The notes beneath the pieces are model-generated. The model was not told where the DNA came from. It was given only the letters and a program-made list of their open reading frames with translations, and ran no database searches. A stretch of 37,017 nucleotides of DNA from NCBI GenBank assembly GCA_017623455.1, contig JAGAPA010000090.1:1-37017 (forward strand), in the 5' to 3' direction. The DNA comes from Clostridia bacterium. Lineage in GTDB: Bacteria > Bacillota > Clostridia > Christensenellales > Pumilibacteraceae. Shown piece by piece: positions 3,838 through 11,609 of this stretch. Both the position numbers and the translations under genes were made by a program. Position 1 is the first letter of the stretch. Every line of letters begins with the position of its first letter.

Positions 3838-3839
3838 AG

Positions 3840-4673
3840 TTATTCTCCTTTCTCCTCGATAGTTTTATCTTTTCTCACACTCGACGGCGAACATCCATAC
3901 ACGCGCCTAAACATCTTTGAGAACGCGTCGATATTTGGATAGCCTACCGAGTTTGCAATAGTTCCCACGCTATAAGACGTGGTTTGCAAAAAGGTTTTTG
4001 CTTTCTCCATTCGCAGTTTCAATAAATACTCTTGCGGACTTATTCCTAAAATATTATCGAATAGCCTCGTAAGGTAACTCCTATCAATTCCAATCTCCGA
4101 AGCAAGCGAGCCAATACGAAGACTGGGCGAGTGGTAGTGATATAAAATATACTGCTCCGCCTTTTGTAAATAATCCTCTTTACAAGTAGTCGTTTGAGGC
4201 GAGGAAACTGATGAAGTGTAAAACTCCGATATGAGCGCGTAAAAATCGGACACAACGGAAAACTCGTTACCGCTCTCATATCCTCGCATAAACTCTTTAA
4301 ACTTGCCGTAAATTCCGTTCTCTGCCTTTGCCGTATATATAGGATTTTGTGGGCTTAAACCGAGTTTTTCTACGATAGCATCGGCTTGCTTACCCGAAAA
4401 AATTATCCAACAATAATGCCAAGGCTCTTGCTCGTCCGCCTTGTAAAAAACCGGGGTAGAGTCGCCGATAAGAAAGCCTTGATTCGCTTTTAAGTTATAC
4501 GTCTTGCCATGCGTTTTAAACACGCCCTTTCCCGATATAACAAAATGAAAAATATAGTTTTCTCGAATTTTCGGGCCGTGACTATGCCCGCTTTTACAGA
4601 ACTGTTCCCCAGCAAATAATACGCAAAATTTTTCAAAGGTTACGCCCCTGCTGTAATGCTCCATCTCCATCAT
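3840..4673 (-). CDS. AraC-family sugar-responsive transcriptional regulator
   Basis: This 277-residue regulator has an N-terminal cupin-like AraC ligand-binding domain (about 15-130) and a C-terminal double helix-turn-helix (about 170-270, including IGSLASEIGIDRSYLTRLF and the second-helix signature VGYPNIDAFSKMFRRVYGCSP). It precedes a beta-galactosidase gene and diverges from an alpha-galactosidase gene, an arrangement typical of MsmR/RafR-like activators of galactoside use. The start is preceded by GAGGAA. Its promoter has a close -35 TTGACA, and the intergenic region contains two dyads that could be its operators. The inducer is inferred to be an alpha- or beta-galactoside. Confidence 0.88.
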   Translation of the reverse strand: MMEMEHYSRGVTFEKFCVLFAGEQFCKSGHSHGPKIRENYIFHFVISGKGVFKTHGKTYNLKANQGFLIGDSTPVFYKADEQEPWHYCWIIFSGKQADAIVEKLGLSPQNPIYTAKAENGIYGKFKEFMRGYESGNEFSVVSDFYALISEFYTSSVSSPQTTTCKEDYLQKAEQYILYHYHSPSLRIGSLASEIGIDRSYLTRLFDNILGISPQEYLLKLRMEKAKTFLQTTSYSVGTIANSVGYPNIDAFSKMFRRVYGCSPSSVRKDKTIEEKGE

Positions 4674-4751: not shown

Positions 4752-4780
4752 TTGATATTCTCTTATAAATAAGGTATAAT
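4752..4780 (+). promoter_or_regulatory. Promoter of the alpha-galactosidase gene
   Basis: A -35 TTGATA (4752-4757), a 17-nt spacer and a perfect -10 TATAAT (4775-4780). Transcription would start near 4787, leaving a leader of about 25 nt with AAGGAG before the ATG. Confidence 0.75.
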
Positions 4781-4790
4781 AGAGTATACC
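4773..4790. promoter_or_regulatory. Operator-like dyad over the GH27 -10 box
   Basis: GGTATAATAGAGTATACC is an inverted repeat (GGTATA/TATACC, 6-nt spacer) that contains the -10 hexamer and the start-site region. A protein bound here would block transcription, so it looks like a repressor site. An AraC-type activator would normally bind upstream of -35, so a second regulator may be involved. Confidence 0.4.
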
Positions 4791-4811
4791 CTATAATAAG
4801 GAGATTTTATT

Positions 4812-5942
4812 ATGCTTATCAAAAAACCGGCTATGGGCTGGAACACTTGGAACACGTTTGGTAGAGATATCAACGAACAACTCATCAAAGAAACTGCTGA
4901 CTTTATGGTAAACGAAGGCTATCTTGAGGCAGGTTACGACACTCTCGTTATAGACGATAACTGGCAAGAAAGCGAGAGAGTTGACGGTAGACTCGTTGCG
5001 GATAAAACCCGTTTCCCTAACGGTATTAAGCCCGTTGCCGACTACGTTCACTCTAAAGGCTTAAGGTTTGGTCTGTATTCTGCCGTTGGCGTAAGAACGT
5101 GCTGCAACAAGCCCGGAAGCTTTGGCTACGAATACGTTGACGCTCAGGATTTTGCAGACTGGGGCGTAGACTATCTTAAGTACGATCTTTGCCACTTCCC
5201 CGGAAGCGGTGACAGAAAGAGCGCGTACCTTACTATGGCTATGGCTCTTAAGGCAACCGGACGTGATATAGAATATTCGTGCGCTATATGCGGAGAAAGC
5301 AATCCCGAACAGTGGATGCGTTCTATAGGCGCTCACAACTACAGAATGTCGGGCGATATTACCGACTCGTTCGGATCTATCAAGTATATTGCCGAAAGAA
5401 GAATGGATATTCCTGATTTTACAGCACCCGGATGCTATTCGGATATGGATATGCTTGTAGTTGGTATGAACGGCGTGGGATATGCGGCTAAGGGCGGTTG
5501 CACCTTGGACGAATACTTCGTTCACTTTGCCCTTTGGAGCTTTTTCGCTTCCCCCCTTATGATTGGCTGTGATATCAGAAAAATTACGCCCGAGTGCAAG
5601 AAAATACTCTTCAACAAAGACCTTATTGCAATAAATCAGGACGAAGAATGTAGAGCCCCCTACCGTGAAAGACAGTCGCGCTACGCTACGATAGTAAAGG
5701 ACAAGTTCACACTTGCTAAACACTTATCTGACAACAAGATAGCATTCGGCTTCTTTAACTTTGCCGACAAAGAAGTTTTGCAAGCATCGTATATGACCGA
5801 CTTTGGTCTTCCCTCAAACACGAGCAAAAAATTACGCTTTAGAGATATCAAGACGGGCGAAACCTTTATCGTAAAGGACGCTCACTCGGTTACTCTTGCA
5901 CCCCACTCCTGCGCTATTTATATTGCGGAGTTTGTAGACTAA
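4812..5942 (+). CDS. GH27 alpha-galactosidase
   Basis: This 376-residue cytoplasmic enzyme hydrolyses terminal alpha-galactose (melibiose/raffinose-type sugars or galactomannan side chains). It begins with the family signature MGWNTWNTFG, followed by VIDDNWQ (46-52). The nucleophile is Asp125 in YLKYDLCH. The acid/base is Asp211 in CYSDMDML, where most relatives have WNDPDML. A short C-terminal beta domain follows from about residue 290. No signal peptide. It is expressed from its own promoter, divergent from the araC-GH35 operon, and is followed after 1 nt by a 64-residue Cys-rich gene. The assignment to GH27 is firm; exact substrate preference is not. Confidence 0.94.
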   Translation: MLIKKPAMGWNTWNTFGRDINEQLIKETADFMVNEGYLEAGYDTLVIDDNWQESERVDGRLVADKTRFPNGIKPVADYVHSKGLRFGLYSAVGVRTCCNKPGSFGYEYVDAQDFADWGVDYLKYDLCHFPGSGDRKSAYLTMAMALKATGRDIEYSCAICGESNPEQWMRSIGAHNYRMSGDITDSFGSIKYIAERRMDIPDFTAPGCYSDMDMLVVGMNGVGYAAKGGCTLDEYFVHFALWSFFASPLMIGCDIRKITPECKKILFNKDLIAINQDEECRAPYRERQSRYATIVKDKFTLAKHLSDNKIAFGFFNFADKEVLQASYMTDFGLPSNTSKKLRFRDIKTGETFIVKDAHSVTLAPHSCAIYIAEFVD

Positions 5943-10334: not shown

Positions 10335-10524
10335 TAAAGCCTCCTGAATAATTCCAACTTTCATTTTATATTTATATTATACCACAAAAAAACCACGTAG
10401 CGATAAAACAATATTTTGCTGTTTTATAACTATATTTCGTTTTTTAGTTTATTCTAAATTCTAAATCTTCAGTTTGAATAAATGAAAGGCTTCTCACCGC
10501 ACTCTTACACCAATCCTAAAAATC

Positions 10525-10607
10525 GCTATCTAAACGGGATAGCGGAAACTACGTTTCCTTTTGTGCTTCGCACAGCGAACGATTTTTGCTTTTCGCAAAA
10601 TATCGTT
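10525..10607 (-). ncRNA. Structured hairpin block A
   Basis: Perfect or near-perfect stems in order on the plus strand are: CGCTATC/GATAGCG (10524-10530 with 10538-10544); GGAAAC/GTTTCC (10544-10549, 10553-10558, loop TAC); GTGC/GCAC (10563-10566, 10570-10573, loop TTC); and AACGATTTTTGC/GCAAAATATCGTT (10578-10589, 10595-10607, one bulged base). Block B shares the linkers and the three last stems with different stem sequences. On the minus strand the last three loops read GTA, GAA and GAAAA. Whether it acts as RNA or single-stranded DNA is unknown. Confidence 0.5.
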
Positions 10608-10625
10608 CTAATTCGAAATAGGATA

Positions 10626-10659
10626 ACAAAAAATAAAAAGAGTATCGAAATGATACTCT
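10626..10659 (-). terminator. Terminator between hairpin blocks A and B
   Basis: The perfect 8-bp stem AGAGTATC/GATACTCT (10639-10646, 10652-10659) with a 5-nt loop is followed on the minus strand by TTTTTATTTTTTG. It would end a transcript coming from block B. Confidence 0.7.
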
Positions 10660-10684
10660 GCCATCTTAATATCTGTTGTTTTTC

Positions 10685-10758
10685 AACGGGAGTAGCGGTG
10701 CTTACGCACCTTTTGTGCTAACGCACAGCGAACGAAAATTGCTACGCAATTATTCGTT
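10685..10758 (-). ncRNA. Structured hairpin block B
   Basis: This is a homologue of block A. The stems are GGTGC/GCACC (10697-10701, 10706-10710, loop TTAC), GTGC/GCAC (10715-10718, 10723-10726, loop TAAC) and AACGAAAATTGC/GCAATTATTCGTT (10731-10742, 10746-10758, one bulged base in the same place as in A). Shared unpaired words are AACGGGA, TAGCGG, CCTTTTGTGCT and CACAGCGAACGA. On the minus strand the loops read GTAA, GTTA and GTA. It lies between two minus-strand terminators, so it could accumulate as a small RNA. Confidence 0.5.
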
Positions 10759-10776
10759 GCGAATCACGGGAGGTCG

Positions 10777-10802
10777 TAAAAAAACAGGGTGATTAGCCCT
10801 AT
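10777..10802 (-). terminator. Terminator overlapping the four-helix-bundle stop codon
   Basis: On the minus strand ATAGGG-CTAATCA-CCCTGT forms a 6-bp stem (one wobble) whose left arm includes the stop codon, followed by seven T. Confidence 0.7.
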
Positions 10803-11146: not shown

Positions 11147-11207
11147 CCTTTCCCTACACCCCTAAACTTATTAATAAATACACCTATTATTCTTTTATTT
11201 TTATCCT

Positions 11208-11425
11208 TTATTTTTATCCTTAATCACGGCAAAGCCGTGGATGTAATCACTCGGTACCCGAGTGCATGTTATCCGATTCTCGGAATGGTTTTCAACACTT
11301 AGTGTTGTATGTAATCAAACTGAAAGTGATTAACATCCTCTACTTATAATTACATTCGCAACACGTTGCAATTTCATACACCTATCGGTGATTACATACC
11401 AAACTTTCAGTTTGGATAAAAATAA
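11208..11425 (-). ncRNA. Hairpin array C closed by a 12-bp inverted repeat
   Basis: The perfect inverted repeat TTATTTTTATCC (11208-11219) / GGATAAAAATAA (11414-11425) encloses eight small dyads: 11225-11239 (CACGGC/GCCGTG), 11248-11264 (CACTCGG/CCGAGTG), 11272-11284 (TCCGA/TCGGA), 11293-11307 (CAACACT/AGTGTTG), 11309-11336 (ATGTAATCA with TGATTAACAT), 11358-11369 (GCAAC/GTTGC), 11379-11390 (CACC/GGTG) and 11399-11415 (CCAAACT/AGTTTGG). Linkers repeatedly read ATGTAAT, ATTACAT or a variant. The last hairpin shares two bases with the closing stem. It lies upstream of, and on the same strand as, the four-helix-bundle gene. A long structured leader RNA or a single-stranded DNA substrate are both possible. 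Confidence 0.5.
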
Positions 11426-11452
11426 CGGCTTCAAAATGAAGCCGTTATTTTT
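11421..11452. terminator. Terminator of the tRNA-Met/tRNA-Glu operon
   Basis: A perfect 12-bp stem AATAACGGCTTC (11421-11432) / GAAGCCGTTATT (11438-11449) with a 5-nt loop and T tracts on both sides. It starts right after the 3' end of tRNA-Glu on the minus strand and works in either direction. Confidence 0.88.
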
Positions 11453-11453
11453 T

Positions 11454-11528
11454 TGGTGACCCCAACGGGATTCGAACCCATATTACCACCGTGAAAGGGT
11501 GATGTCCTAACCTTTAGACCATGGGGCC
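11454..11528 (-). tRNA. tRNA-Glu (anticodon TTC)
   Basis: On the minus strand the gene starts GGCCCCATGGTCTAAAGG and ends with an encoded CCA. The acceptor stem GGCCCCA/TGGGGTC has one G-T pair. The anticodon arm CACCC-TTTCACG region displays TTC, and the T loop reads GGTTCGAATCC. It is 75 nt including CCA. It lies 4 nt after tRNA-Met and just before a strong terminator. Confidence 0.96.
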
Positions 11529-11532
11529 ACAT

Positions 11533-11609
11533 TGGTGGCTGCAAACGGATTTGAACCATTGACCTGTCGGGTATGAACCGAATGCTCTAGCCAGCTGAGC
11601 TATGCAGCC
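11533..11609 (-). tRNA. tRNA-Met (anticodon CAT, elongator type)
   Basis: On the minus strand it starts GGCTGCATAGCTCAGCTGG and ends with an encoded CCA. The acceptor stem GGCTGCA/TGCAGCC is fully paired, including position 1-72, which excludes an initiator tRNA. The anticodon loop is TTCATAC. It is 77 nt long. A CAT anticodon could also be a lysidine-modified tRNA-Ile, but the body matches clostridial elongator tRNA-Met. Confidence 0.93.

Follow-up and report, generated by a model that had tools for sequence, protein, structure and literature searches.

On the minus strand of the window, by which we mean the whole analysed stretch of 37,017 nucleotides, a tRNA-Met and a tRNA-Glu gene are followed, in this order, by a terminator, an array of short hairpins and a gene of the S23/PF05635 family (Table 1). 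The initial annotation had placed a four-helix-bundle gene next to the array, and this identification was confirmed: the encoded protein matches PF05635 (E 1.7e-19), TIGR02436 (E 3.5e-20) and PDB 2rld (E 8.8e-14). By comparison with G001, a genome of the same genus, the element seems to start at the 3' end of tRNA-Glu. The orientation of the units in the window flips at the apex. Beyond the S23 gene (10481-10790) lies a second family of hairpin repeats, with stems such as GTGCgaaGCAC and GTAGC..GCTAC, which in G001 is closed by CGGGA/TCCCG and stands directly behind the tRNA-Glu terminator; among six genomes searched it matched 11 times in that of the window, 10 times in G001 and in none of the four others.

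Table 1. Features of the tRNA-array-S23 locus, listed in the minus-strand order
Feature	Position	Strand	Remarks
tRNA-Met (CAT)	11533..11609	-	ARAGORN; Rfam tRNA 63.8 bits
tRNA-Glu (TTC)	11454..11528	-	ARAGORN; comparison with G001
Terminator hairpin of tRNA-Glu	11418..11452	-	unlike the terminators behind the same tRNA in G001 and G002
hp1 CCAAACTgaaAGTTTGG	11399..11415	-	left arm and loop (11403-11414) complementary to apex
Linker L1 TATGTAATC	11390..11398	-	
hp2 CACCgataGGTG	11379..11390	-	
hp3 TTGCAACGTGTTGCGA	11356..11371	-	
Apex CACTTTCAGTTTG	11316..11328	-	complementary to left arm and loop of hp1; 12-base match in the window
Linker R1 GATTACATA	11308..11316	-	reverse complement of L1
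hp5 CAACACtaaGTGTTG	11293..11307	-	
hp6 TCCGAgaaTCGGA	11272..11284	-	
hp7 CACTCGGgtaCCGAGTG	11248..11264	-	
hp8 CACGGCtttGCCGTG	11225..11239	-	
GGATAAAAATAA, one arm of the 12-bp inverted repeat	11208..11219	-	second copy at 11195-11206; none seen in relatives
S23 / 23S rRNA IVP four-helix-bundle gene, 115 aa	10799..11146	-	PF05635, TIGR02436, PDB 2rld

The array had originally been described as eight hairpins enclosed by a perfect 12-bp inverted repeat. This repeat is indeed exact (TTATTTTTATCC at 11208-11219 and GGATAAAAATAA at 11414-11425), and an inverted repeat of 12 bp occurred in none of 300 dinucleotide shuffles of 11191-11440. As the boundary of the element it was nevertheless rejected: the arm at 11414-11425 overlaps the tRNA-Glu terminator (11418-11452), the other arm recurs at 11195-11206, and the repeat was not seen in the related arrays that were read and is thus not conserved among relatives. 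Eight stems of at least 4 bp are present, but the relatives support only seven units (hp1, hp2, hp3 and hp5-hp8), the position of hp4 being degenerate. The number of hairpins alone exceeds chance moderately, with 8 stems of at least 4 bp against a mean of 4.6 and a maximum of 8 in shuffles, and 5 stems of at least 5 bp against a mean of 1.6 and a maximum of 5. Folding of both strands, which the initial annotation had proposed as a check, yielded z-scores of -5.8 on the plus and -6.5 on the minus strand, each reached by 0 of 200 shuffles. The recurring linkers are present as well, but GATTACATA occurs exactly only twice, a number also reached by 5 of 100 window shuffles; the window copy is eroded and its linkers are degraded.

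The statement that neither a known riboswitch nor a CRISPR fits found support. No Rfam family scored above its own threshold on the array, the best match below it being BASRCI337 (20.6 bits, cut-off 229), and in the Rfam scans tRNA and rRNA alone reached the gathering score. Judged by its layout the array is no CRISPR: the linkers are short and invert at the apex, and the stretches between them are palindromes. On layout, too, an integron attC site seems unlikely. The attachment to tRNA gene and terminator, the inverted halves, the apex rule, the generalisation to heptamers and the mobility go beyond that earlier reading.

Related arrays and their position behind tRNA genes

A scan of named genomes for relatives of the window protein produced 65 loci, from Clostridia and mostly from herbivore guts; the upstream DNA was read for 61 of them, the other four being dropped for short or partial upstream DNA. 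Most of the 61 loci follow a common plan, consisting of a tRNA, a terminator, hp1, linker-hairpin units, the apex, units in reverse orientation and the S23 gene, from which a few depart (e.g. L098). The linkers are TATGTAATC, TATGGAATC and TATGGCATC before the apex and GATTACATA or GATTCCATA after it. Many homologous arrays lie beside other four-helix-bundle genes, and their stems carry heavy compensatory changes, the two observations on which the initial reading had been made to depend. Between array and S23 gene some of the loci have a promoter-like box and others little space for one. In loci such as L041 and L049 hp8 lies so close to the start codon that little promoter space is left; the array is therefore probably transcribed, which would fit an RNA role.

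PF05635 matches five times in the window genome. One match, situated at the end of C2, overlaps with the beginning of contig C64 and represents the same gene, leaving four S23 genes. All four have an upstream array and each has a different linker, demonstrating that the linker is tied to the gene and not to the genome. Purifying selection on the S23 relatives is strong, dN/dS amounting to 0.01-0.10 in the 12 usable pairs (2 of 14 pairs were out of frame, and dS was saturated in some others). Genomes G056 and G108 have the same coordinates and are apparently one genome. In L085 the right half has grown to about 13 units upstream of S23, several hairpins being identical, which is apparently a recent tandem expansion. 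In L017 (G000 C57) the array occurs twice in nearly the same form (3838-4005 and 4757-4900) but S23 only once, and the additional copy follows a tRNA-like 3' end and a nearly identical terminator.

A position behind a tRNA gene is common among these loci. In 51 of 62 arrays a tRNA ends less than 400 nt from the S23 start, counting same-strand tRNAs only, and in the 48 arrays with a marked array start the gap between tRNA and array is 26-45 nt and contains the terminator. Among more diverse S23 loci for which enough sequence was available a same-strand tRNA or tmRNA lies less than 600 nt upstream in 17 of 72 (one further locus has one on the opposite strand only), against 0 of 77 downstream (p 1.4e-6). 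Arrays also occur apart from S23 genes. Of 24 genomes searched with the array-linker pattern 17 contained it, with 60 matches in total, and the reversed control gave 0; a match in G279 was rejected, being GC-rich, coding-looking sequence without hairpin units. Eleven S23-free arrays, each separated from every S23 match of its genome by more than 20 kb or located on a different contig, were inspected by eye and keep most of the common plan. Eight of them stand directly behind a tRNA or tmRNA recognised by ARAGORN (L141, L146, L148, L149, L150, L152, L159 and L164) and one (L144) behind a fragment resembling tRNA-Gly, beyond which lies an intact tRNA-Gly; directly before the remaining two (L147 and L160) ARAGORN recognised no tRNA. 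At L152 (about 1220-1830) two tandem arrays, each with another linker family, lie behind a tRNA-Leu.

Pairing and inversion within the arrays

An alignment was made of 57 of the 62 arrays, in which MAFFT split the variable right half. The apex is present in 56 of the 57, and positions 3-9 of apex and hp1 form Watson-Crick pairs in 50-53 of these 56 arrays and covary, the counts at position 3 being GC 31, TA 15 and AT 6. Since the loop of hp1 pairs with the apex too, the match is no by-product of the hp1 palindrome. Over 28 distinct fifteen-base units of the right half 92.9% of the cells pair, compared to 60.9% in shuffles, and the pairing score was reached by 0 of 500 shuffles; 52 cells were changed on both sides and 0 on one side only, while 10 of the 12 unpaired cells (out of 168) concern the outermost pair.

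The loops reveal a polarity that is opposite in the two halves. Distinct left-half units have 24 G..A loops and 1 T..C loop (neither in 41 of 66), and distinct right-half units 1 G..A and 25 T..C (neither in 23 of 49). It follows that the whole unit, and not the linker alone, tends to invert at the apex. In the window hp6 and hp7 depart from this rule, as their sense-strand loops are G..A, hp7 being the sole right-half exception in the count of distinct units. Loops of the GNNA and GNA type are hyperstable in DNA.

When the inner pairs of the hairpins, of hp1/apex and of the arrays without S23 are pooled, 17 G.T stand against 15 A.C; the outermost pairs are left out of this count as they are polar and resemble linker variation. 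The terminators of the same loci have 12 G.T and 2 A.C, a difference from the arrays with p 0.049. The rare inner wobbles, balanced by A.C mismatches, thus point weakly towards DNA. A strand reading based on the outermost pairs (12 G.T in the left half, 21 A.C in the right half) was rejected: their bias is taken for linker variation because the inner pairs lack it.

These data bear directly on an explanation in terms of structured RNA. Read-through of the tRNA terminator might yield a transcript of the array that serves as leader or small RNA and is bound by S23, for instance in autoregulation, with hp1/apex and the left and right linkers forming a pseudoknot. The orientation along with the tRNA in 51 of 62 arrays (same-strand tRNAs only), the folding z-score of -6.5 on the tRNA strand and the scant promoter space before S23 in some loci are in line with such a role, and the poverty in wobble pairs is shared by the terminators (12 of 915), which are RNA hairpins of the same loci. 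However, an excess of G.U is missing from the arrays, although the contrast with the terminators is weak, none of the 28 units shows a one-sided change, the tetraloops are divided almost evenly between GNRA (11) and GNYA (10), and one RNA strand does not explain why the loops of the two halves are mutually complementary. We therefore consider the RNA explanation possible but rather unlikely.

Site changes and occurrence beyond the Clostridia

On the S23 tree the identity of the adjacent tRNA changes 26 times, where 16 is the minimum possible and shuffles give a mean of 34.4 and a minimum of 30 (50 labelled rows, 17 states; the tree is weakly resolved, with 32 of 57 inner branches open). As 26 lies between 16 and 34.4, the tRNA site is inherited in part and altered in part. 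In two clades tRNA-Glu and tRNA-Cys, respectively, are largely retained, and a third has its ten labelled members at nine different tRNAs, as far as the weakly resolved tree defines it. In addition, the same terminator was found behind different tRNAs, both in L054 (Cys) and L057 (Val) and in L082 (Asn) and L090 (Thr), and the similarity among such loci begins at the tRNA 3' end.

A comparison at the window site itself is provided by G001, which has no PF05635 match. Its tRNA pair is 100% identical to that of the window and the left flank matches piecewise, in order, over about 8 kb. At this site, which lacks array and S23, another terminator leads directly into the repeat situated beyond S23 in the window; G002 and G011 have a third terminator, common to both, at the tRNA-Glu site. 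Insertion of the element at the window site appears to be the simplest reading; replacement or loss could account for the difference too, and as the right flank of G001 is non-syntenic past the repeat, insertion and replacement would look alike here. That flank is filled by a reading frame that by eye resembles a DNA methyltransferase (L250, 1-1870), which suggests that the tRNA-Glu site may be an insertion hot spot. The presence of the array is patchy between related genomes.

To what extent the association holds outside the relatives of the window protein can be seen from 78 further, diverse S23 loci, including one duplicate pair (L188 = L110). The upstream hairpin count was reached by at most 1 of 40 shuffles in 42 of the 78 loci, and 29 have repeats of period 7 or 14 on a flank. 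Together, hairpins or heptamer repeats were detected in 65 loci; 13 failed both automatic tests, most of which also have such repeats by eye. In control tiles, period-7 repeats occurred in 1 of 519 and repeats of period 7 or 14 in 3 of 151. In the diverse loci the mean number of hairpins per 320 nt is 3.6 upstream of S23 and 2.3 downstream, compared with 1.7 in a more distant downstream stretch. With at most 30 counted per locus at each lag, exact six-mer matches at lag 7 numbered 275 upstream and 253 downstream of S23, versus 15 in the control stretch (77 loci); inclusion of eight plasmid or phage loci that have no control stretch raised the first two numbers to 409 and 336, versus the same 15.

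The repeats are often arranged in inverted halves in these loci as well. Exactly one orientation switch upstream of S23 was found in 34 of the 46 loci with at least 5 copies of one six-mer. Six loci have a single orientation upstream, and all of them carry at least 2 inverse copies downstream, which places S23 in the loop, as in the 23S IVS. Eight remote S23 loci (from 6 of 18 plasmid records and 2 of 2 unverified phage scaffolds) all have repeats by eye. From 19 records 12 more plasmid loci were obtained, of which 10 exceed all 20 shuffles (L272 only just) and two, L267 and L273, have repeats that are not above the shuffles, which preserve base composition only. Treponema, Bernardetia, Chlorohelix and Monoglobus contribute a single locus each. 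On the plasmids of other phyla the repeats are mostly plain heptamers in inverted halves, and from these sequences the hairpin array looks like an elaboration of the plain heptamer arrangement. The plasmid elements L271, L277, L267 and L272 sit within defence loci, the genes on either side being cas2 and cas1, those for a restriction subunit S and HsdR, or those for a helicase and a DNA methylase.

Heptameric repeats have been reported before. A 2015 account describes them as over-represented in bacteria and, in the passages concerned, as being without detailed literature (PMC4692102). The intergenic repeats of Xanthomonas and Nostoc treated there are seven-base tandems, in Xanthomonas often as inverted pairs, but unlike the arrays described here they are presented in those passages without hairpins and without a stated link to S23 (PMC4692102). 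Polymerase slippage has been proposed for heptamers (parts of PMC4692102), and the expansion of units in L085 would agree with a neutral expansion of this kind. Nevertheless, slippage gives neither inverted halves with a single switch nor stems that vary yet remain paired, and it gives no link to S23, which the near absence of such repeats from the control tiles calls for; as the origin of the arrays we consider it hardly credible.

The class of the linker was assigned by hand for 43 of the 78 diverse loci and for 10 of the 65 clostridial ones, and on this set it changes 14 times on the S23 tree, against a mean of 35.5 and a minimum of 31 in shuffles. Linker class thus tracks the S23 clade, for which common descent alone could suffice as array and gene are linked.

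The S23 element among known systems

A known setting of S23 is the intervening sequence (IVS) of 23S rRNA, e.g. of Coxiella burnetii, for which the consulted sections of PMC4990558 mention an S23-family ORF, self-complementary ends and the designation selfish element. In the same sections tandem heptamers GACAGAT are placed before the ORF, three in some strains and two in others, the authors suspect that S23 is not made in vivo, and the S23/IVP proteins, whose fold is solved, are said in 2016 to be without known function (PMC4990558). The window element shares the S23-family ORF (PF05635, TIGR02436). It differs from the IVS in that it lies behind a tRNA-Glu terminator, with no rRNA match in the window (Rfam, ARAGORN), in that both half-arrays are upstream of the gene with hairpins alternating with linkers, and in the strong purifying selection on the S23 relatives, whereas the Coxiella protein is suspected not to be made. 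We file the S23 element as a variant of the S23/IVS kind. Among the top-ranked matches in the open-access literature nothing was found on the array or on a general link between heptamers and S23, the Coxiella paper apart.

A second likeness is that to the REP/BIME sequences and to REPtrons with TnpA-REP (RAYT). According to the parts of PMC3733652 and PMC8266576 that deal with them, these are also short palindromes, often opposed and mostly 3' of genes, and copies likewise exist at a distance from the associated gene. This gene, however, is a Y1 (RAYT) transposase in REPtrons and S23 here, and the array is more regular and has the apex rule. GTAG or CGTC was found in the 8-nt flanking linkers of 0 of 223 units, a count obtained with a linker-picking pattern that partly forbids both strings. 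The arrays might likewise be modules that the host keeps at 3' ends, as DNA-level insulators or supercoil sinks behind strongly transcribed genes. REPs are, in the text of PMC3733652 at hand, inverted palindromic units at the 3' ends of transcription units, and the S23-free arrays retain their stems, with 205 of 213 inner pairs being Watson-Crick. The patchy presence between related genomes argues against such host upkeep, as does the search for the Y1 transposase PF01797, which matched in 9 of 26 genomes including that of the window and gave no match in the other 17. All in all we regard a host-kept module as improbable. Reliance of the element on a Y1 transposase encoded in the same genome was rejected on the same 17 of 26 genomes, which are drafts.

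PF05635 resembles in sequence and structure Avd, the accessory protein of diversity-generating retroelements (DGRs), as stated in part of PMC10053308, which raises the possibility that the element is a retroelement relative of the DGR or group II type, S23 being the Avd-like partner of a reverse transcriptase (RT) in trans. In support of this, a higher share of S23 genomes has an RT gene (28 of 76) than of other genomes (44 of 220; p 0.005). Unlike in a DGR, no RT was found among the 18 window proteins scanned, and the window genome has one partial RT match, on another contig. Moreover, 48 of the 76 S23 genomes have no RT match, although drafts may miss genes; one of them, G103, is 98% complete and has two S23 matches and seven matches to the array pattern. 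Reliance on an RT of the same genome was rejected for its absence from most of these draft genomes, and a kinship with retroelements seems very improbable to us. The searches for RT and Y1 transposase thus yielded no inserting enzyme, and PADLOC gave no match for the window S23 protein.

On balance we think it somewhat more likely than not that array and S23 gene form one mobile, or horizontally spreading, S23 element, the array being the part that acts in cis and S23 probably the protein that binds it. The element would move or spread horizontally and bring its own terminator, by which, we propose, it would do little harm behind a tRNA gene. In a single strand the half-arrays would fold back on each other to a stem with side hairpins, and S23 would bind to both linkers and hairpins in the array that belongs to it. 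The palindromes would be maintained largely at the level of DNA, one arm being copied or repaired from the other, since one-sided changes are nearly absent.

More tentatively, and with considerable doubt, this proposal may be extended to S23/IVP as a whole. The family could represent a large and so far overlooked class of mobile foldback elements across phyla, in which each clade recognises its own array of heptamers or heptamers with hairpins, the palindromes diversify through DNA-templated copying of arms, and the footprints explain a large part of the so far unaccounted-for surplus of seven-base repeats in the intergenic DNA of bacteria. A link between S23 and heptamers could help to explain both an orphan protein family and many of the seven-letter repeats of bacterial genomes, and it offers a direct test for the function of S23 as well as for that of the heptamers. 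It also suggests how small elements can reside behind essential RNA genes and leave these intact, while the arrays constitute a natural set of palindromes in which the sequence changes and the pairing stays.
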